Below are positions 10,249 through 20,734 of a stretch of 64,000 nucleotides of DNA, piece after piece. The DNA is taken from the NCBI GenBank assembly GCA_007118145.1, contig SKSD01000030.1, forward strand, positions 62,001-126,000. The letters run 5' to 3'. The stretch is from Halobacteriales archaeon. GTDB taxonomy: Archaea > Halobacteriota > Halobacteria > Halobacteriales > SKSH01. Both the position numbers and the translations under genes were made by a program. The notes beneath the pieces are model-generated. The model ran no database searches and was not told where the DNA came from. It saw only the letters and a list, made by a program, of their open reading frames with translations. Every line of letters begins with the position of its first letter. Positions within the stretch are counted from its first letter, which is position 1.

Positions 10249-12003
10249 TTACTCAAACCTATCGACCCCATCACCTACCTCAGCGAGCTCCTCCACCAGC
10301 CCCAGTGACTCACATAACGAGGCCGTGGGGACCCCTTCTTGTGTCCATCCTCGCCGCTCATAATAGTGGCTGAGCAGCCGGGCGAATGCCAAGCGATCGA
10401 TCGTTGCATGATCACCTCCAGTGTCGATCGGCTGTGTGAACACCTTGGGAAGGTTGTCATCATCTCTCGTCACACCCTCGCGGATGTTGAACAGACGGGT
10501 GAGTGTCCATACCCGCTCGCCGATGCGCTCGAGTTCGCCACTCGTGATATCGACACCGATGGCGTCGAAGTACTCGATACCAAGATCCGCCTCGAATGCC
10601 GGGGCGGTGACATCATCCACGATGTAGGACCAGAGGAGCGAACTCCGGTTCTGCTCGTTGATCACCGCGGTGATGCGATCGTTATCGTCCCAGTTAGTAC
10701 CTGTCACCTCGGCGAACACCGGATGCGATCGGCGGTGACAGGCACCGCGGTCACTCGTCGCGAACGCGAGTGCCATCGATGGTGCACGCCTCGGGTCGTA
10801 TGATGCGGCTGACATCGACTTGACCGTCGGGACGAGGTTCGCACCGCCAAGACGTGACGCAGCCCGGTCGATACCGTCGGCGAGGAGCTCACCGAGTCGC
10901 GATGAGCGGGTGGCGATCTCTTCGATGAGCTGACTGGCATCCTCGACCGCATCGAAACGAACCGTCCGATCGATGACGCCTTCCTCACTGGCGAGCATCG
11001 CCCAGGCGACGGCGTTACCGGTCTCGATGAAGTCCATCCCGAGGGTGTCACACAGCCTGGCGAGGTGCACCACCTCGTCGAGATCACCGATACCGAGATT
11101 CGCACCGAGAGCGATACCCAACCCACCCCTTGGGACCACATCACCGACCTGGAAGTCACCCTCGACCTCGCTGCCGCTGGCCTCTCGGCCGTCGGCCCGC
11201 GACTGGATCGCGTCGATGCCGATCGCATCAGCCCCGTCGAATCGGCCCGCTCTCCATCCCATCGTCGGGAGCACGCCAAGCTCGTCGGCTGCATCCACCG
11301 TCTCGAGCGTCCCACTCGCGCGGTGAGCCCGACCCTCTGGGTGGTCGTGAAATCGCTCCTCATATCTCGCACGAATCGCCTCGAGTTCTGGGTTGGCAGA
11401 TGGCTCACCCCGTGCTACGATCGCCTTGAGCCGTTTCGATCCCATGACCGCACCTGTGCCTCCTCTGCCAGCGTGGTGGTCACCGCCATCGGTCGCGATG
11501 GTGGCGAATCGCACGAGTGACTCACCGGCAGGTCCAATCCCGGCGACTGCACCGTCGAGCGATGCATCGAGTTCCCTGACATCACTACCCCACAGGGCAG
11601 GTGTCTCGTCGATCTCAACCTCACCACCCTCGAGGTGGACGGTCACAGGTTCGTCAGCGACACCTTCGATGATGATACCGACGTGAGCACCGAGTGCGTC
11701 GACGAACGCGTCGGCAAAGGAGCCACCACTGTACGAATCGACGAAGATGCCAGTCAGCGGTGATTTCGTGATGGCTGCGAATCGTGTCTCACCAGGCAGA
11801 TAGCCCGAGAAGGGCCCTCGAAAGAGACACAGTACGTTGGCAGAGCCGAGGGGGTCGATATCCGGATTCAACATCTCGAACAGGTACCGCACACCGAGAC
11901 CCTTCCCGCCGATGAACGAACGACGCCATGGCTCGGGGATATCCTCGGCAGTCACCGCCCGCTCGGTGAGATCGACTCTGAGTACCGCCTCGGGAAGTGA
12001 CAT
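10249..12003 (-). CDS. Aldehyde ferredoxin oxidoreductase family protein lacking the Fe-S cysteines
   Basis: This 584-residue protein follows the AOR fold: N-terminal domain with FIGGKGLGVRYLFE (30-43), RGPFSGYLPGETRF (62-75), SPLTGIFVDSYSGG (81-94) and GTGAVMGSKRLKAI (182-195), plus the first pterin motif DTLGMD (319-324). The CxxCxxxC stretch before it and the later cluster cysteine are missing. Only Cys59, Cys318, Cys422 and Cys564 exist, none at the cluster positions; the fourth ligand region reads SYIVDD. Classical AORs are tungstopterin enzymes that oxidise aldehydes to acids with ferredoxin. This one may bind the cofactor without a [4Fe-4S] cluster, or be inactive. It neighbours the cofactor biosynthesis cluster. 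Confidence 0.8.
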   Translation of the reverse strand: MSLPEAVLRVDLTERAVTAEDIPEPWRRSFIGGKGLGVRYLFEMLNPDIDPLGSANVLCLFRGPFSGYLPGETRFAAITKSPLTGIFVDSYSGGSFADAFVDALGAHVGIIIEGVADEPVTVHLEGGEVEIDETPALWGSDVRELDASLDGAVAGIGPAGESLVRFATIATDGGDHHAGRGGTGAVMGSKRLKAIVARGEPSANPELEAIRARYEERFHDHPEGRAHRASGTLETVDAADELGVLPTMGWRAGRFDGADAIGIDAIQSRADGREASGSEVEGDFQVGDVVPRGGLGIALGANLGIGDLDEVVHLARLCDTLGMDFIETGNAVAWAMLASEEGVIDRTVRFDAVEDASQLIEEIATRSSRLGELLADGIDRAASRLGGANLVPTVKSMSAASYDPRRAPSMALAFATSDRGACHRRSHPVFAEVTGTNWDDNDRITAVINEQNRSSLLWSYIVDDVTAPAFEADLGIEYFDAIGVDITSGELERIGERVWTLTRLFNIREGVTRDDDNLPKVFTQPIDTGGDHATIDRLAFARLLSHYYERRGWTQEGVPTASLCESLGLVEELAEVGDGVDRFE

Positions 12004-12209: not shown

Positions 12210-12332
12210 ATGATGACATCACTCACACCGCTCCTCGCCGACCTCGTTGTCGTCGGTGCGTTCGTCACCTTCCTCATCGCACTCTTTCGAAGGATACTCA
12301 AATCGCGGGCGGGATCGCTCTCGAACACGTAA
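12210..12332 (+). CDS. 40-residue single-helix membrane microprotein
   Basis: The short ORF opens MMTSLTPLLADLVVVGAFVT and continues FLIALFRRILKSRAG. It is one hydrophobic helix followed by an Arg/Lys-rich cytoplasmic-side tail. A GGAGGT ribosome binding site sits at 12197-12202, seven bases before the ATG, which is strong support in a genome where many genes are leaderless. A TATA-like box and direct repeats lie upstream. It fills part of an otherwise empty 549-base gap between the AOR homologue and yqeC. No family is recognised. It could be a small regulator or subunit of a membrane complex. Confidence 0.55.
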   Translation: MMTSLTPLLADLVVVGAFVTFLIALFRRILKSRAGSLSNT

Positions 12333-12552
12333 GCAGGTCAAGATTGACGGGGCTAGCGACACAGTCAGCCCTCTTGCACATCAGGCGACCTGCCGTTGCG
12401 ATGACGGGGTATCGACAGTCACAGGATCTCTATGCAATGTGACCCCGATACCATCGAAAAGTGATACGACATGTGTATGGTGTCATAGCACCGTGAACCA
12501 TGACGAGCGAAGGCGCAATCGGTATGCACTCTCGGATTCGAGTGGTGACGTG

Positions 12553-13293
12553 ATGCGGTTGGTCGAGGCACTGGATGCGGACCAGGGGGTGGTGAGCGTG
12601 GTTGGTGCTGGTGGGAAGAAGTCGACGATGTACCGGCTGGCCGAACAGTTGGACCGTCCGCTGCTCACCTCGACGGTTCGGATCCCAATCTTCGACCAGT
12701 ATGTCGAGCGCGTCATCGTCACCGACGATCCTGTCGAGGCGGTCGCGAACGCGGAGGAGACACACTGGCCTCTCGGGGTTGTCTCCGAGCAGGATGGTTC
12801 CGATCGGTATCTCGGGTACCATCCATCCGTTATCGACACGCTCTCAGGAGTCGACGAGGTGCAGACGATACTCGTGAAGGCAGATGGTGCCCGGATGCGC
12901 AAGTTCAAGGCACCGGGTGAGAACGAGCCACAGCTACCGAGTTCGACATCGGTCGTGGTACCCATCGTCAGCGCGCACGTCATCGGTGAGCCGCTGTCCG
13001 ATGAGATCGTCCACCGAGTCGACCGAGTTGCACACCTCACCGGACTCTCACGTGGTGATACAATCACCCCATCCGCCGTCGCTGTGGTCATCGCCAGCCC
13101 GGACGGTGGTCACAAGGGCGTCCCTGATGGTGCAAGCGTGGTCCCACTCATCAACATGGTCGATGATGGGTCATTCCAGGACGATGCCAGGCGGGCAGCA
13201 GAGGAGATCTTGCGACGGTGTGATGCACCACGCGTCATCTTGACACGGCTCACCGCTTCGAACCCAGTCGTCGATACCATCGGGCGAAGTTAA
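12553..13293 (+). CDS. yqeC: YqeC-type cofactor accessory protein
   Basis: This is a 246-residue protein of the YqeC family, named for an association with selenium-dependent molybdenum hydroxylases. A P-loop-like [15 protein letters not shown] lies near residue 15-30, followed by a STVRIPIF strand and a [20 protein letters not shown] motif characteristic of the family. The reading frame is open further upstream, but the ATG at 12553 is preferred because a GGTG element precedes it and homology starts there. No selD, yqeB or xdhC partner is visible nearby. Adjacent genes are for Mo/W cofactor synthesis, so a cofactor maturation role is likely, but the reaction is unknown. It is convergent with moaA; their stop codons overlap. 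Confidence 0.75.
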
Positions 13294-14264
13294 TCAGCTG
13301 TCGGTGGCTGCTCGAGGTATGCCTCGTTGAGTTCCCACTCGCCGTTGGCGTTCTTGACCATGTACTCACCGTAAAACGGCACGCGATTGGCGACGACCGT
13401 CTCGAACGCCTCACGTATATCGGGCTTCGACATCGACCCCATAGGGACATAGTCATCGGTCCGGTTGAGACAGCCCTTGAGCTCACCCTGTGGTGTGACG
13501 CGCACACGGTGGCAGTTCGCACAGAAGGAGGGGTTCTCCACCGGATCGACGATCTCGACCATGCCGCCATCGACCCAGTATCGACGACGTGAGTGCATCT
13601 CACGTCGCTCGATGTGGTCTGCCCGACCAGCCAACCAGTCATGGACACGATCGATATCGATCGCCCACTCCTCGTTACCGGTCAGCTCTGGCATGTACTC
13701 GATGAGTTGCAACTGAAGCCCGGATTCACTCGAGACACGATCGACCATCTCGGGGATGTATGGTGCAGTCTGATCGAAGACGACCATATTGAGCTTGACC
13801 GGATGGAGGCCGGCTTCGAGTGCAGCATCGATCCCCTCGAGGACACGGTCGAACGCACCGGTCTTCGTCACCTGTGCGAACGCCTCCGGTTCCATGGAGT
13901 CCTGTGAGACATTGACTCGTTCGAGACCGGCATCGACGAGCCGTTCTGCCCGGCCTGGAAGGAACGTACCGTTGGTCGTCATCGACACCTCCATCGATGC
14001 CGGTGTGTTCGCGATAATCTCCTCGAGGTCCTGTCGGAGCATCGGTTCACCGCCGGTGAACTTGACCGCCTCGACACCGTACTCAGCGGCCACCTCTAAC
14101 ACGCGTATCACCTCGTGCGTCTCCATCTCGTCGTCCTGCGGGTCGAGCGGCCCGCGCGTATCGCCGAGGCCTTCGTTATGGCAATAGACACAGTCGAAGT
14201 TACAGCGATCGGTGAGAGATACCCGTATACCGGTGAGCTCACGACCGAACGCGTCTTCCAACAT
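13290..14264 (-). CDS. moaA: GTP 3',8-cyclase MoaA
   Basis: This 324-residue radical SAM enzyme catalyses the first step of molybdopterin synthesis, converting GTP to 3',8-cyclo-GTP. The N-terminal cluster cysteines are 21, 25 and 28 (CNFDCVYC) with the SAM-binding GGEP at 71-74. The C-terminal cluster cysteines are 248, 251 and 265 ([19 protein letters not shown]). The C-terminus ends EQPPTAD and lacks the terminal Gly-Gly of many MoaA proteins, so substrate closure may differ. A promoter region is shared with the divergent moaE gene. With moaC and moaE close by the pathway assignment is secure. Confidence 0.95.
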
Positions 14265-14352: not shown

Positions 14353-15150
14353 ATGTACGCGGTCAGGATCGAGACGGGTGCTACTCTCGACGAGGCCGAG
14401 GTTGCCAGGCGGGTGGCAACACACCTGGTGGATAGTGGTGAGGTTGCCACCCTCGAGCCACGTCGACGGTCACCCGCAAGGGTCGATGGCTCGCCATCGA
14501 TCGCATCGGTTCGTCTGTCGGCTGCGGATCAGGTGGAACTCGACCTCCCCGATCGAGACACCGCCGAGTTGCTCGATATGCTCTGTGACCTCGGGTTCTC
14601 GTACACCCTTGTCGTCAACGGTGACGATATCGACCTGCCCGTCATCTCAGTCGGCACCGAAATCGAGGAGGCGATACTCTCTGTCGAGCAGGTAGCACGT
14701 ATCGATGCATCAACGCTACGTGAAGCGATCGCACAGACCGAACCGCGTGAGACGCTCACCTCACTGGTCGAGAAGATACAGGACCATCCTGACTCTGCCA
14801 AGGCGGGTGCGATCGCAACGTTCACCGGTCGTGTCCGTGCCGATAACATCGAGGGTTCGCGGACAACCCACCTCGAGTACGAGAAGTACGACGGTGTCGC
14901 CGATGAGGAGCTGGCGGCCATCCGCGATGAGCTGGTCGCACGAGACGGTGTATACGAGGTGTTACTCCACCATCGGACGGGTGTGGTCGAGGCTGAGGAG
15001 GACGCCGTGTATGTCGTCGTCCTCGCGGGACATCGACCTGAGGCGTTTCGAGCTGTCGAGGATGGTATCGACCTCCTCAAAGAGCGCGTACCCATCTTCA
15101 AGAAAGAGGTGACCGAATCCGGTGATTTCTGGGCACACGACCGGCCGTAA
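14353..15150 (+). CDS. moaE: Molybdopterin synthase catalytic subunit with N-terminal extra domain
   Basis: This is a 265-residue protein. The C-terminal part (about 125-265) is MoaE: GAIATFTGRVRADNIEG, LEYEKYDG, HHRTGVVEAEEDAVYVVV, HRPEAF and the catalytic-region lysines in PIFKKEV. MoaE inserts two sulfurs from MoaD thiocarboxylate into precursor Z. The first 120 residues form a separate acidic domain without recognisable catalytic motifs, longer than bacterial MoaE (about 150 residues); similar long forms occur in haloarchaea. MoaD is not encoded in the window. The gene is divergent from moaA and convergent with moaC. Confidence 0.9.
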   Translation: MYAVRIETGATLDEAEVARRVATHLVDSGEVATLEPRRRSPARVDGSPSIASVRLSAADQVELDLPDRDTAELLDMLCDLGFSYTLVVNGDDIDLPVISVGTEIEEAILSVEQVARIDASTLREAIAQTEPRETLTSLVEKIQDHPDSAKAGAIATFTGRVRADNIEGSRTTHLEYEKYDGVADEELAAIRDELVARDGVYEVLLHHRTGVVEAEEDAVYVVVLAGHRPEAFRAVEDGIDLLKERVPIFKKEVTESGDFWAHDRP

Positions 15151-15159
15151 CGTGTCTCA

Positions 15160-15627
15160 TCAGTCGCCCTTGACCTTCTTGACGACCTCGATATCGCCGA
15201 TCCTTGTGGCTGGATACTGACCATCGGCGTCCTTTTCGAGGCTTTTGACCATGTCCCAGATGGTCAACAGTGCACCACTCACACCGTTGAGTGCCTCCAT
15301 CTCGACGCCGGTCTGCGCCGTGGTCCGCACCTCGGCAGTCGCGGTGACGTACCCGTCGCCGATATCGAACCTGATGTCGATGCTCGAGATGGGCAATGGG
15401 TGACACAGTGGGATCACCTCAGGGGTGCGTTTGACCGCTTGGATACCAGCAACCCGTGCCGTCTGCAGGACGTTCCCCTTCTCGACGCTCTCTGCGTTGA
15501 TCGCCTCGATCGTCGATGGTGAGAGGAAGATCGACCCCTCGGCAATGGCGACTCGGTCGATGTGTTCCTTGTCCCCGATATCGACCATCCTGACACGGCC
15601 ATCCTCCAGGTGTGAGAAGTCGCTCAT
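15160..15627 (-). CDS. moaC: Cyclic pyranopterin monophosphate synthase MoaC
   Basis: This 155-residue protein is the ordinary length for MoaC. It rearranges 3',8-cyclo-GTP to cyclic pyranopterin monophosphate. Conserved elements are MVDIGDKEHIDRVAIAEG near the start, PLCHPLPIS around residue 80 and TGVEMEALNGVSGALLTIWDM around 110-130, with the active-site KSLEKDA following. It is convergent with moaE, nine bases separating the stops, and lies 54 bases downstream of the cupin-MoaB fusion, so it may share that transcript. Nothing is unusual about it. Confidence 0.95.
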   Translation of the reverse strand: MSDFSHLEDGRVRMVDIGDKEHIDRVAIAEGSIFLSPSTIEAINAESVEKGNVLQTARVAGIQAVKRTPEVIPLCHPLPISSIDIRFDIGDGYVTATAEVRTTAQTGVEMEALNGVSGALLTIWDMVKSLEKDADGQYPATRIGDIEVVKKVKGD

Positions 15628-15681: not shown

Positions 15682-16500
15682 TCACCGATGCGCCAGGCTG
15701 ACCACGTGATTCAACTCGGGGACGATCACGTCATCCATGGCGAGTTCGACCGCGTGTCGACTCCCTGGGATGGCGAACACGGCTGTCTCACCGACGATAC
15801 CAGCCGTGGCTCGCGACATGATGACGGCCGATCCGATGTCGTCAACACTCAGTCGGCGGAGGTGCTCACCGAAGCCGACGAGTTCCTTATCGAACAGCGG
15901 GCGGATCGCCTCGATCGTCACGTCATCAGGTGTGATGCCGGTTCCACCTGTGAGGATGATGGCATCCACATCATCGATCGCCCCTCTGACGGCCCGTCGG
16001 ATAGCCTGCTCATCGTCGTCGAGCATCTCGTATCTTGTGGGAGTATGACCCTCGGCCTCGAGCGATGCGTGGATGATGCGACCCCCCTCGTCATCGGCGA
16101 CCGTCCGGGTCGTACTCACCGTGAAGACAGCCACCTCTCGTGGATCGGTAGAAACGTGATGGTGATGGTCACCTCCACCAGATCCAGGGAGGGGTGCCAT
16201 CATGACGAGTGTGCGAAGTGGCTCATCGCCGTCATTGCGAATGCCGTGGCTGACCCCGGGTGCGGCGTGGACGAGTTGACCCTCTGCAATGTGTCGCTCC
16301 TCACCGTCGATGGTCGCGATGGCACGTCCCTCGAGGACGAGGTAGATCTTATCAGAGCCGTCGTGTGTATGGGGCTCTTGTGCCTGACCAGGCTCGAAGC
16401 ACCAACAGTCGACGAACATCCGCTCGGTGTCGATCAGATTGATCTTCTCGAATGACTCGGGTGAGAACGCCCCGATCGACCCAAGATCGTGTATCTCCAT
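15682..16500 (-). CDS. Cupin-MoaB fusion protein
   Basis: Two domains are joined in one frame. Residues about 1-105 form a cupin with metal-ligand pattern EPHTH (His47, His49), Glu60 and His88 (APGVSHG), numbered from an ATG nine bases upstream. After a glycine/histidine linker GSGGGDHHHH, the rest is MoaB/MogA, with ILTGGTGITPDDVTIEAI and FGEHLRRLS. MoaB adenylylates molybdopterin before metal insertion. A cupin fused to it is not an arrangement I know; it could sense or handle oxyanion, metal or a small ligand. The His-rich linker could also bind metal. An ATG at 16509 in the same frame is an alternative start. Confidence 0.88.
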   Translation of the reverse strand: MEIHDLGSIGAFSPESFEKINLIDTERMFVDCWCFEPGQAQEPHTHDGSDKIYLVLEGRAIATIDGEERHIAEGQLVHAAPGVSHGIRNDGDEPLRTLVMMAPLPGSGGGDHHHHVSTDPREVAVFTVSTTRTVADDEGGRIIHASLEAEGHTPTRYEMLDDDEQAIRRAVRGAIDDVDAIILTGGTGITPDDVTIEAIRPLFDKELVGFGEHLRRLSVDDIGSAVIMSRATAGIVGETAVFAIPGSRHAVELAMDDVIVPELNHVVSLAHR

Positions 16501-16561
16501 GCGACACATCTGAGGTAGCCCAGTGTCTTACCGTTTTCCTCCCCAAGAGACGATCCTCACA

Positions 16562-16609: not shown

Positions 16610-17245
16610 ATGCGGACCGGTGTCATCCTCGCTGGGGGGTATTCAACGCGATTCGGTGAGGCTGACAAGGCTTTCTCACACATCGATGGGACGCCACTCA
16701 TACGTCACGTTGCCGACCGTCTCAGGCCGGTCATCGACACCCTGGTGATCAATGCGCGGGAGGATCAACATGAGCGGTTCGCCAATGTCATGGATGGGTA
16801 CCCACTCGAGGTGACCTACGCGATCGATGACGTGGCAGGTGGTGGCCCCGTCTCTGGGATGGCGACCGGTCTGTCGGTGGTCCCTGAGGGGACGGCACTC
16901 GCGTTCGTCGTCGCTTGCGACATGCCGTTCGTCGAGGCTGACCTGGTCGATGCGTTGTTCGAGTTGGCCGAGGCCGAAGCTGACGTCGGTGCCGTGGTGC
17001 CCACCTCGAGCGATGGCTGGCACCAGGTGCTCCATGCAGTGTATCGACCAGCACCGACCATCGACGCCTGTCGAGCTGCCATCGCCCGAGATGAGCGCAA
17101 GGTGCTCGCACCGCTTTCACGCCTGCATGTCAGATACGTCGACCCGGATGAACTCACGCAATACGGCGGTGAGCGGTCGTTTGAGAACGTCAATACACCA
17201 GGCGAGTTGGAGGCTGCTGCTGCTGCGTTACAGTCGACCGAATAG
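16610..17245 (+). CDS. mobA: Molybdenum cofactor guanylyltransferase MobA
   Basis: This is a 211-residue nucleotidyltransferase of the MobA family. The signature GVILAGGYSTRFGEADKAF (residues 4-22) binds GTP, DGTPLIRHV follows, and FVVACDMPFV (about 100-109) gives the metal-binding Asp. MobA attaches GMP to molybdopterin to make the guanine dinucleotide used by bis-MGD enzymes such as DMSO-reductase family members. Its presence indicates that the host has MGD enzymes, none of which is in this window. The closing region PLSRLHVRYVDPDEL with ENVNTPGEL is also family-typical. An operator-like repeat overlaps its promoter. Confidence 0.9.
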   Translation: MRTGVILAGGYSTRFGEADKAFSHIDGTPLIRHVADRLRPVIDTLVINAREDQHERFANVMDGYPLEVTYAIDDVAGGGPVSGMATGLSVVPEGTALAFVVACDMPFVEADLVDALFELAEAEADVGAVVPTSSDGWHQVLHAVYRPAPTIDACRAAIARDERKVLAPLSRLHVRYVDPDELTQYGGERSFENVNTPGELEAAAAALQSTE

Positions 17246-17270: not shown

Positions 17271-17660
17271 CTACAGTGGCGGCTTCAGGTCGATGACTGG
17301 TGTCTCATCCAGCATATCGATCCCCTCCACCTCGAGGCCGGCCTCATCCACCTCCAAGACGTGACACCTCGTCAGACAGATGGGGTTTGGTCTGTCCTGT
17401 GAGCGGGTGGTGAATATCCCCCGCCCAGAGAAGCGGTCGCTCTCGAGAATGGTGCGATCCGCGAGATGGGCGTGCCAGATGACGATGATGTCGTCTGCGT
17501 CATACCCCTTGATACCGATCCGATACGGCTCGTGAAGGTCGATCCGGCCCCGTATGGACTCGAGCGAACCCTGTCGAGGTGCATCCTCAGGCTCGATCAA
17601 CTGACTCGACACCGAACCGATCGGGTCATACGTGATGTCCATGAGCGAGGGTTCGGGCAT
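17271..17660 (-). CDS. TrmO-like SAM-dependent methyltransferase (UPF0066)
   Basis: This small protein has the complete TrmO/UPF0066 signature: YDPIGSVSS at the start, RGIFTTRSQDRPNPICLT and EVEGIDMLDETPVIDLKPP. TrmO methylates the N6-threonylcarbamoyladenosine at position 37 of tRNA. Archaeal members also occur near Mo/W cofactor genes, as here, and their substrate is less certain. At 129 residues it is a minimal single-domain form. The ATG at 17660 is used; an ATG at 17642 begins directly before the conserved motif and is equally likely, while the upstream GTG is weaker. Confidence 0.8.
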   Translation of the reverse strand: MPEPSLMDITYDPIGSVSSQLIEPEDAPRQGSLESIRGRIDLHEPYRIGIKGYDADDIIVIWHAHLADRTILESDRFSGRGIFTTRSQDRPNPICLTRCHVLEVDEAGLEVEGIDMLDETPVIDLKPPL

Positions 17661-17696
17661 GCGTACCAAATAGCGACTGCCGATTCCCACGAGTTG

Positions 17697-19535
17697 TCAC
17701 GAGGTATCGCCCGGTGGCCGATAACCATCGAGCATCTCGGTATTGAACGAGGTCACCTCCTCGACCAACCGTGTGACCCCTGGTTTTTCTCGTCGGTCAC
17801 CATCGACGAGGATATCGAACGGCTCCCACATAACGGATACCGTATCGAACTCGTCCGTATCGGTCACCGCTTCGAGCACCAATGCAGCGTCCACCTCACC
17901 CTCGGTCACCGCTCGCAACGCTGCCTGCTGTGAGGGGAACGTTCGAATCGAAGCCGAGGTATCGAGAGTCTCGAGGCGGTGATACAGGCCGGTCTGTTGC
18001 CCTGTGGTACCAAGCACATCAGCCTGCTCGAGAATGGACTCCAGGGAACCGAGCCCGAATGTACCGCGATGGGCGAGGACGACATGACGCTCAAAACACG
18101 CTATGCGTTCGATATCGTTGCGCGGTTCAACCCCGAGGGTATCGTCCCCGAGGTTCACACCGGCGATATCGACGATGCGGTCTCGAAGCTTCCTCGCACC
18201 ATCGACGGCACCATCGGCCAACCATCGCGTTGATGGCCCATCACGATCGAGGAGCTGGTCGACCCCGGGGCAGAACTCACCACCGATGAGCACATCTGGC
18301 GGTGAAATATGGCTCGCGAGGAGTTGGACGGACACCATCTCACCGGCATCGAGATAGTTGACGTTATCGTCGATCTGGATGAAGCCGTCAGCTTCTGCCA
18401 GCGACGTGATCGCACCACTCCCCTTATCGACATCGTACACAAGGAGCCCCTCACCGGGTGATTCGACGAGCCCGACCGGTAGCAACTGGGTACGGCCGAA
18501 CTCCGAGTCGACGGCGACTGAGAGCTTTGCCTCGACGGTCGGTGCATTCGCCTCGGCATCGAGCAGTCGCCGCCCGAACAGTCGGAAGGTCATCAACGCA
18601 CTGATCGGGTTACCTGGCAGGCCGAGCACGGCAGTCTCGTCGATACTTCCAATCACCGTCGGCTTACCTGGCTTGATCGCGATACCGTGAAGCAGTAACT
18701 CACCCATGTCCTCGACGACGCGATAGACGACATCCTCCGCACTCGCGCTCGTCGACCCGGTCGAGAGAACGATATCGCATGTCTCCACAGCCTCGTTGAA
18801 CGTCGACGTGATCACGTCGTAATCGTCGGCTGCATGGGGGAAGATGGTCACCTCTCCACCGGCGTCTGTGACGGCATTCGCCAGCGAGAACGAGTTGATA
18901 TCGAAGATCTCACCCGGTGCGAGTCGGTCAGCCGTGCTCGGCCTGATGATCTCAGCACCTGTCGAGATGATCCCCACCCTCGGCCTTGAGCGTACGGTGA
19001 GCTCGTCGATACCGAGTGCTGCAGCCAGGCCAATACGACGTGGGTCGAGCCGGTCACCCCGGCGAAGGACGGTCTCTCCGCTAGCGATATCTGCACCGCG
19101 TGCCATCACGTTCTGACCTGGTGTCACCGGTCGGAACACCTCGATCGCCTCACCATCTCGACTTGTCTGTTCGACCATGACGACCGCGTTGGCACCAGAT
19201 GGGATGACCGCACCCGTGGCGATCTCCACGGCGTGCCCCGGCTCGACATCGATGTCTGGCTGCTCGCCGGGATGTACTTTACCTCCGTAGGTCAGCTCGA
19301 CGGGATTGTCATCATACGCACCGACGGTATCATCGGCGATCACCGCATACCCGTCCATGATCGACCGGTCAAACCCGGGGACATCGATCGGCGATGTGAC
19401 CGAGCTGGCGAGTAGACGGCCATCTGCCTTTTCGATCCCAACCGACTCAGTCGAGACCTCGACCGAGAGCGAATCGAGTACCTCGAATGCATCCGCGAGC
19501 GGGCTGAGTTCTCGGAATTGCTTCCGCATGGTCAC
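17697..19535 (-). CDS. moeA: MoeA molybdopterin molybdenumtransferase fused to a periplasmic-binding-like domain
   Basis: This is a 612-residue two-part protein. The first 400 residues are MoeA, with DVPGFDRSIMDGYAV (52-66), ATGAVIPSGANAVVMVEQT (about 110-128), TGSTSASAEDVVY and GLPGNPISALM. The last 200 residues form a PBP-like domain (VLIGGEFCPGVDQLL, HRGTFGLGSLE, VMWEPFDILV) found fused to many archaeal MoeA proteins and probably able to bind molybdate, tungstate or a pterin-related ligand. MoeA inserts the metal into adenylylated molybdopterin. It overlaps the other moeA by four bases. Two paralogues might separate molybdenum from tungsten, but this cannot be told from sequence. Confidence 0.92.
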   Translation of the reverse strand: MTMRKQFRELSPLADAFEVLDSLSVEVSTESVGIEKADGRLLASSVTSPIDVPGFDRSIMDGYAVIADDTVGAYDDNPVELTYGGKVHPGEQPDIDVEPGHAVEIATGAVIPSGANAVVMVEQTSRDGEAIEVFRPVTPGQNVMARGADIASGETVLRRGDRLDPRRIGLAAALGIDELTVRSRPRVGIISTGAEIIRPSTADRLAPGEIFDINSFSLANAVTDAGGEVTIFPHAADDYDVITSTFNEAVETCDIVLSTGSTSASAEDVVYRVVEDMGELLLHGIAIKPGKPTVIGSIDETAVLGLPGNPISALMTFRLFGRRLLDAEANAPTVEAKLSVAVDSEFGRTQLLPVGLVESPGEGLLVYDVDKGSGAITSLAEADGFIQIDDNVNYLDAGEMVSVQLLASHISPPDVLIGGEFCPGVDQLLDRDGPSTRWLADGAVDGARKLRDRIVDIAGVNLGDDTLGVEPRNDIERIACFERHVVLAHRGTFGLGSLESILEQADVLGTTGQQTGLYHRLETLDTSASIRTFPSQQAALRAVTEGEVDAALVLEAVTDTDEFDTVSVMWEPFDILVDGDRREKPGVTRLVEEVTSFNTEMLDGYRPPGDTS

Positions 19536-20734
19536 TCCCAGTAGACAGCCTCGACCTGGTCTCCACGGTCGAACCCCTCGACAGCCTCGGGTATCTCGAC
19601 GATCCCATCAGTCTGTGCGATACTTGAGAGGATACCCGCACCACTCGTCATCGTCGGCGTTGCCAGGTATCTGTCACCATCTCGTTCGAGATGGACGCGT
19701 GTGTAGGTACGTCTCCCCACCTTCGAATGCACCTTCTCGGTGAGTTCGCACGAGCGTGTCGGCAGAGGGAGCGATCGGAAACGGCCCACCCGTTCGAGGG
19801 CTGGCCTGGCGAAGACGACGGAGTTGACCACGCACGACACGGGATATCCAGGGAGCATGATTAACGGTGTCCCATCGACATGTCCCATCCCCACCGGGTG
19901 ACCGGGTTGGATCGCCACGCCGTGGATGACCACCTCACCGATATCGTCGACCACCTCGGGGAGGTGATCACGCTCGCCGACGCTCGACCCACCGGTCGTG
20001 AGGATGAGGTCGGCGCCGACCTCGGCCAAGATCGCCTCGCCAAGTGTCTCTGGGTCATCCGTCACGATATCGCGATAGAGTGCATCACCTCCCCATGATT
20101 CGATATACTGTGCGACCATCATGCCGTTCGTCTCGATTACCTCACCAGGTTTCGGATCGGCGCTGACCAGCTCCTCACCGGTCGGGATGATCGCCACCTG
20201 CGGGCGTTCAAAGACGGTTACCTGCTCGACCTCGAGGCTTCGCAGTAGGCTCAATCTAGACGGCGTGAGGGTCGTCCCCTCCTCGACGACCGTCTCACCC
20301 GATGCAACATCCTCACCTGCGACGCCGACATGCCTCCCCGATGCGACCGCGTCGTATACCTCGATGGACGCACCAACCGTGCGTGTATCCTCAATCATCA
20401 CTACCGCATCCGCCCCCTCAGGGAGTGGACTCCCGGTGTGAACGCGCACTGCTTGCCCCGATGCGACCGGTTCACCCTCCCCGACCTCGAGGGTCCTCGG
20501 TGACCGCTTGGTCGCCCCATGGGTCTCCTCAGCGCGCACCGCCCAGCCGTCCATCGCGGCGCGATCATAATGAGGGATGTCGCGGTCAGCGGTGATCGAC
20601 GTGGCCGATACACGCCCCCGAGCGGCGTGCAATGCGACCGTCTCGGTTCGCTCGACGGGATCCACCAGGTCTAACAGAGTCTCCCTGGCTGTCGCAACGG
20701 GTGTCGCATCACGGAACCCGTGCTCATGTCTCAT
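19532..20734 (-). CDS. moeA: MoeA molybdopterin molybdenumtransferase, second paralogue
   Basis: This is a 400-residue single-unit MoeA without the C-terminal binding domain of its neighbour. Conserved stretches are PHYDRAAMDGWAVRAEE (about 54-70), VHTGSPLPEGADAVVMIED (about 98-116), PTGEELV, TTGGSSVGERDHL and MLPGYPVSCVVN. The TGGSSVG sequence is the equivalent of the MoeA/MogA-type TGGTS loop. It is the upstream gene of the pair and its stop overlaps the next start (ATGA), so both products are made from one transcript. Function in metal insertion into the pterin cofactor is secure at family level; metal preference is not known. Confidence 0.92.
   Translation of the reverse strand: MRHEHGFRDATPVATARETLLDLVDPVERTETVALHAARGRVSATSITADRDIPHYDRAAMDGWAVRAEETHGATKRSPRTLEVGEGEPVASGQAVRVHTGSPLPEGADAVVMIEDTRTVGASIEVYDAVASGRHVGVAGEDVASGETVVEEGTTLTPSRLSLLRSLEVEQVTVFERPQVAIIPTGEELVSADPKPGEVIETNGMMVAQYIESWGGDALYRDIVTDDPETLGEAILAEVGADLILTTGGSSVGERDHLPEVVDDIGEVVIHGVAIQPGHPVGMGHVDGTPLIMLPGYPVSCVVNSVVFARPALERVGRFRSLPLPTRSCELTEKVHSKVGRRTYTRVHLERDGDRYLATPTMTSGAGILSSIAQTDGIVEIPEAVEGFDRGDQVEAVYWE

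Follow-up and report, generated by a model that had tools for sequence, protein, structure and literature searches.

A cupin-MoaB fusion in a haloarchaeal molybdenum-cofactor cluster as a candidate one-chain form of a cupin and MoaB pair

We analysed a stretch of 64,000 nucleotides from a Halobacteriales archaeon (assembly GCA_007118145.1, contig SKSD01000030.1, positions 62,001 to 126,000 of the forward strand), called the window below, and focused on a gene that joins a cupin to a MoaB-type domain among molybdenum-cofactor (Moco) genes (Table 1). The original prediction had described an in-frame fusion through GSGGGDHHHH, and the sequence bore this out: a single open frame carried both Pfam domains above their cut-offs, Cupin_2 at residues 36-103 (E 3.9e-17; 62.2 bits, cut-off 27.2) and MoCF_biosynth (PF00994) at residues 128-268 (E 3e-31; 108.5 bits, cut-off 26.6), with GSGGGDHHHH between them (HHHH at 16156-16167, minus strand). 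Aligned relatives begin at the second Met, so translation probably starts at 16500, which matches the gene end given in that prediction. In a structure model built on an alignment of nine sequences (mean pLDDT 77), the linker (model residues 104-115) was predicted with a pLDDT below 50 between two better folded halves.

Table 1. Coordinates of the fusion gene, its parts and the neighbouring Moco genes in the window.
Feature	Position	Strand	Detail	Evidence
cupin-MoaB fusion gene	15682..16509	-	275 codons; probable start ATG 16500	open frame, Pfam, recurrence, alignment
cupin domain (TTHA0104-like)	16186..16500	-		Cupin_2; 1v70 E 2.4e-23; alignment
flexible His-rich linker	16147..16185	-	resembles N-terminal tails of standalone MoaBs	low model confidence
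MoaB (MPT adenylyltransferase-type) domain	15685..16146	-		MoCF_biosynth; E. coli MogA alignment; Foldseek 1y5e
moaC	15160..15627	-	next gene downstream of fusion	Pfam
moaE-type molybdopterin synthase	14353..15150	+		Pfam; NCBIfam NF011061 over cut-off
moaA (GTP 3',8-cyclase)	13290..14264	-		Pfam
mobA-like nucleotidyltransferase	16610..17245	+	divergent from fusion	Pfam
moeA with C-terminal PBP-like domain (Mo insertase)	17697..19535	-		Pfam; NCBIfam NF011068 over cut-off
second moeA	19532..20734	-		Pfam

The fusion lay among Moco genes in five of the six genomes that carry it, the exception being G012, and in three of them it directly followed moeA, the two frames being 9, 9 and 36 bases apart. 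The chain itself contained only the cupin and MoCF_biosynth; a MoeA-like E domain was absent, moeA being encoded on its own. The cluster of the window also included a gene for a TrmO-like tRNA methyltransferase (17271-17690), and an aldehyde ferredoxin oxidoreductase gene and a YqeC-type gene flanked it (10249-12003 and 12247-13293). A role of the fusion as a partner of tungsten aldehyde oxidoreductases was not supported, the AFOR_N domain being present in 64/98 relatives and in only two of the six fusion genomes.

The residues of the MoaB half were assessed by alignment to E. coli MogA. MogA Asp49, the GGTG motif and Asp82 were all kept in the fusion, and the same alignment placed a Glu at the Asp49 position of E. 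coli MoaB. Asp49 and Asp82 of MogA are named as critical for MPT adenylylation (PMC9458074), and the inactivity of E. coli MoaB has been ascribed to the Glu at the Asp49 position (PMC11656743). The top Foldseek matches of the modelled chain were MoaB structures (1y5e, E 8.4e-18; Pyrococcus furiosus 4lhb, E 2.7e-14), and the 50 fold matches listed were all of the MoaB/MogA type, so this search says nothing on the cupin fold. Among the NCBIfam models, the fusion satisfied the domain model TIGR00177 (113.5 vs 85.35 bits) and fell below the cut-offs of the MoaB equivalog TIGR02667 (149.9 bits, cut-off 222.4) and the MogA equivalog NF006932 (66.4 bits, cut-off 158). A separate haloarchaeal MoaB likewise fell below both, indicating that these models do not cover the haloarchaeal group. 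Judged by its residues and gene context, the MoaB half of the fusion looks catalytically competent.

To follow the architecture search proposed in the original prediction, we surveyed 98 relatives, 391 genomes of the class and 163 other genomes of the phylum; together, the first two samples held 406 different genomes from a single order. The full cupin-MoaB architecture was present in 6/98 relatives (G000 and G001 of family f1; G010, G025 and G036 of f10; G012 of f12) and in 5/391 genomes of the class, a sample that does not include G001, and in none of the 163 genomes outside Halobacteriales. The six genomes measured 1.7 to 2.3 Mb and were 76 to 98% complete. The same domain order was thus found in five other, separately assembled genomes, and this six-genome recurrence excludes a frameshift error, named earlier as a possible source of the fusion, or an assembly artefact. 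A plasmid search returned no place covering 80% of the fusion query, and a scan of genome contigs returned nine relatives, each matching one half of the fusion only. In the free MoaB tree the six fusions (rows OWN_L002 and HALO_L007 to L011, duplicates merged) did not form one clade; a single origin was not rejected for either the MoaB half (p-AU 0.19) or the cupin half (p-AU 0.463).

The His-rich linker, which the original prediction had presented as a feature of the fusion, proved to be the usual N-terminal tail of haloarchaeal MoaB. Standalone haloarchaeal MoaBs carried a His- and Asp-rich stretch immediately before the domain, and in counts over loci that were mostly best-scoring matches, at least four His occurred in the last 25 pre-domain residues of 46/49 standalone copies (median 8), 5/6 fusions (median 4) and 1/9 other MoaBs. 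As background, any such 25-residue window was present in seven of 72 predicted proteins from seven loci, the 72 including five fusions and one MoaB. A linker peculiar to the fusion was therefore rejected, and this flexible His-rich segment is to be counted with the MoaB half of the chain. The tail also tracked the active site. Asp49, GGTG and Asp82 were intact in 58 of the 69 distinct haloarchaeal MoaB domains at the fetched loci, and at least four His were found in the 45 residues before the domain in 55/58 of these intact copies (the remaining three had two His each), compared to 0/11 of the non-intact ones, which were second, weaker matches in the relatives search (Fisher's p 2e-10, calculated over related sequences that are not independent). 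Ten of the 11 MoaBs from outside haloarchaea had the intact motif, and one of these ten had four His. Since intact non-haloarchaeal MoaBs mostly lack the tail, it is a haloarchaeal trait that is unneeded for the chemistry as such.

The proposed four-ligand cupin site was only partly upheld. His47, His49 and His88 were placed as the original prediction had them, were invariant across the six fusions and supply the three His of the two cupin motifs; Glu60, in contrast, is the Glu of the strand 'LVLEG' and not a ligand. Against the printed motif GX5HXHX3,4EX6G (PMC2684688), the canonical Glu position of motif 1 was occupied by Lys54, which leaves the fusion cupin with three His ligands at most. 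Each of the 12 fused-type cupins compared (6 fusions, 5 bacterial and 1v70) had Lys at this position, and the residue before it was Asp or Glu in every one. The three His could still hold a metal by themselves. The nearest solved relative, over a full-length alignment, was Thermus thermophilus TTHA0104 (1v70), which is listed as a dimer without metal (PMC2684688). At five bacterial loci, we found no clear link of fused-type cupins to Moco or other cofactor biosynthesis genes. At one of the bacterial loci the cupin gene was in divergent orientation with the gene of a molybdenum hydroxylase large subunit (MoCoBD_1, MoCoBD_2; L127:1750-4071 and L127:4433-4897), and in two genomes a small membrane protein was encoded just upstream of the cupin (L031:2855-3424; L129:5015-5482), with weak matches to CopD or DUF2214 below cut-off.

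Another cupin subfamily accompanied moaB as a separate gene. It was present as a single copy in each of 68/98 relatives; a 69th match came from G001 and was the fusion's own cupin. Of the 68 carriers, 38 had it within 6 kb of moaB, tail to tail in 37 and in tandem in one. These 38 cases spanned seven families (f4, f6, f7, f9, f13, f15 and f17); among the remaining carriers, cupin and moaB were on different contigs in 11 and further apart on one contig in 19. The original prediction had reckoned with relatives that encode the two parts separately and far apart: they are indeed mostly separate genes, but often stand side by side. The usual order was guaA, cupin, moaB on the opposite strand and adh, and tail-to-tail pairs with guaA and alcohol-dehydrogenase-like neighbours were seen at loci L040-L048 and L130-L141. 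Given the tail-to-tail orientation, neighbour cupin and moaB do not share an operon, and their linkage could be due to common descent of the locus. This cupin was not found as a separate gene in any of the six fusion genomes; of the 92 genomes that have no fusion, 24 lacked it too. In the cupin tree, the fused cupins grouped with bacterial TTHA0104-like cupins and the neighbour cupins formed a clade of their own (support 99/100; branch length 2.52); a single clade for the TTHA0104-like cupins was not rejected (p-AU 0.56). Because the two lie in different clades, direct descent of the fused cupin from the neighbour cupin is unsupported, and the two subfamilies need not share a function.

The old moaB locus persisted in the window's genome. 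On another contig (contig 28, L156:9237-9686), guaA and adh still flanked a MoaB-like gene, whose product had GGLG in place of GGTG and no His tail and kept the catalytic Asp. The cupin was gone from this locus of the window's genome (G000) and had left no recognisable remnant, the only matches being weak ones elsewhere in the stretch. Ten genomes from families f4 and f8 yielded a similar second MoaB-like protein (L146-L155), these being ten of the weaker second matches in the relatives search. The catalytic Asp was lost in all ten, guaA lay within the stretch in eight and a cupin in none; each of the ten genomes had a better-matching MoaB elsewhere, and the four of these that were read (G020, G035, G054 and G058) were intact. 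This divergent protein, mostly found between guaA and adh and having neither an intact active site nor a His tail, is possibly a pseudoenzyme with a new role. The window's genome gave five PF00994 matches, including two MoeA, one degenerate MoaB-like and, by eye, one CinA-like protein, and among them there was no further intact MoaB that stands alone. The assembly is 78.7% complete, so another MoaB may be missing from it. As the copy at the old locus is degenerate, the fusion appears to be the working MoaB of this genome.

From the observed architecture, its recurrence, the residues and the gene neighbourhoods we infer an activity, a partnership and a role for the cupin, and lean, with modest confidence, towards the fusion being a one-chain cupin-plus-MoaB partnership at MPT adenylylation in which the cupin is an accessory domain. 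The gene product would be the organism's MPT adenylyltransferase of the MogA/MoaB type, extended at its N-terminus by a TTHA0104-type cupin, and its MoaB half would supply the MoeA insertases encoded in this cluster with MPT-AMP. It would represent the one-chain form of a cupin and MoaB pair that many haloarchaea keep as two neighbouring genes. The cupin would most likely bind a small ligand, or a metal through its three His, at the adenylylation step, and such binding may stabilise or control MPT-AMP formation. That cupin and MoaB work together is suggested by the fusion in few relatives and adjacent genes in many, and the partnership reading rests on these being two separate associations, by neighbourhood and by fusion, of two cupin subfamilies with the same enzyme. 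The separate cupin was not found where the cupin is fused, and the old MoaB copy has decayed in the window's genome; both support the one-chain reading. The interpretation in the original prediction, that the cupin delivers or senses something needed at the adenylylation or metal insertion step, such as a metal or an oxyanion, thus retains a true fusion, a competent-looking MoaB, a Moco cluster and an evolutionary tie to cupins, and loses the four-ligand site and the fusion-specific linker. The cupin may serve as a metal cap, a sensor or a scaffold, and metal or oxyanion delivery or sensing may be part of that role.

Two other readings take the cupin or the whole protein away from MPT adenylylation. 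The cupin might be a passenger whose fold helps with solubility or assembly, or whose activity is unrelated, while the neighbourhood of cupin and moaB reflects inherited synteny. Such a passenger would fit the rarity of the fusion (6/98), its confinement to three families, the placement of the neighbour cupin in another clade and, in many genomes, at a distance from moaB, and the conservation of guaA and adh at that locus with no evident functional tie. However, two cupin subfamilies are each associated with this enzyme in a way of their own, three families have retained the fusion, and genomes that have it lack the separate cupin; we regard a passenger as rather unlikely. Far more improbable is a switch from Moco enzyme to regulator of the kind reported for mycobacterial MoaB2: Mycobacterium smegmatis MoaB2 binds sigma-A (PMC11656743), but the catalytic Asp and GGTG are intact in the fusion, its gene sits among moaA, moaC, moaE, mobA and moeA, and the search of the window's genome gave no other intact standalone MoaB.

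A third alternative is a specific form of the partnership reading and stands nearest to the idea of the original prediction. Here, the three-His cupin and the His-rich tail would keep a soft or borderline metal, copper or zinc, close to the MPT dithiolene as a cap, which MoeA would then swap for molybdate or tungstate. This places two His-rich elements beside a dithiolene substrate, and it draws on the restriction of the His tail to intact haloarchaeal MoaB domains (55/58 vs 0/11) and on a Cnx1G structure with bound molybdopterin (1uux/1uuy), whose title links molybdenum and copper metabolism. The Lys in place of the canonical Glu ligand in all 12 fused-type cupins, the listing of TTHA0104 without metal (PMC2684688) and the intact non-haloarchaeal MoaBs that mostly do without the tail speak against it, and we consider it unlikely. 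In a broader form, haloarchaea would carry out MPT adenylylation with a dedicated module for handling a metal or ligand, made up of the His-rich tail and a neighbouring or fused cupin. It would cap or control the MPT dithiolene until molybdate or tungstate is inserted, with the tail kept only alongside an active site; this form seems to us just as doubtful.

At the MPT-AMP stage the MPT dithiolene carries a metal of debated origin. The fusion, the conserved cupin neighbour and the His tail linked to the active site provide concrete candidate parts for this step. Halobacteriales is an order with well-used laboratory species, and the two-gene cupin and moaB form is widespread in it.

In the open-access literature on cupins, MoaB and the molybdenum cofactor, we found no description of a cupin-MoaB architecture. 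A survey of archaeal fusions names MoaC-MoaB and others, and the word 'cupin' is absent from its main text (PMC11237513). The fusion is a new arrangement of already known parts. P. furiosus MoaB (4lhb) and MogA/Cnx1G have the same fold by model comparison and the same Asp49, GGTG and Asp82, but have no cupin; the fusion adds an N-terminal cupin and a His-rich linker. TTHA0104 (1v70, 2dct), a small cupin of T. thermophilus, shares the three His and the Lys at the Glu position, but is a free-standing 105-residue protein that is listed as a metal-free dimer, whereas the fusion cupin is joined to MoaB. The standalone haloarchaeal MoaB is the same enzyme with a similar His-rich stretch before the domain and an associated cupin; it differs in being one of two genes, in the subfamily of its cupin and in a tail that is longer and richer in His. 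Finally, gephyrin/Cnx1 and the archaeal MoaC-MoaB likewise join a MoaB/MogA-type domain to another domain (PMC9458074, PMC11237513), but their partners are Moco enzymes, whereas the partner in the fusion is a cupin.
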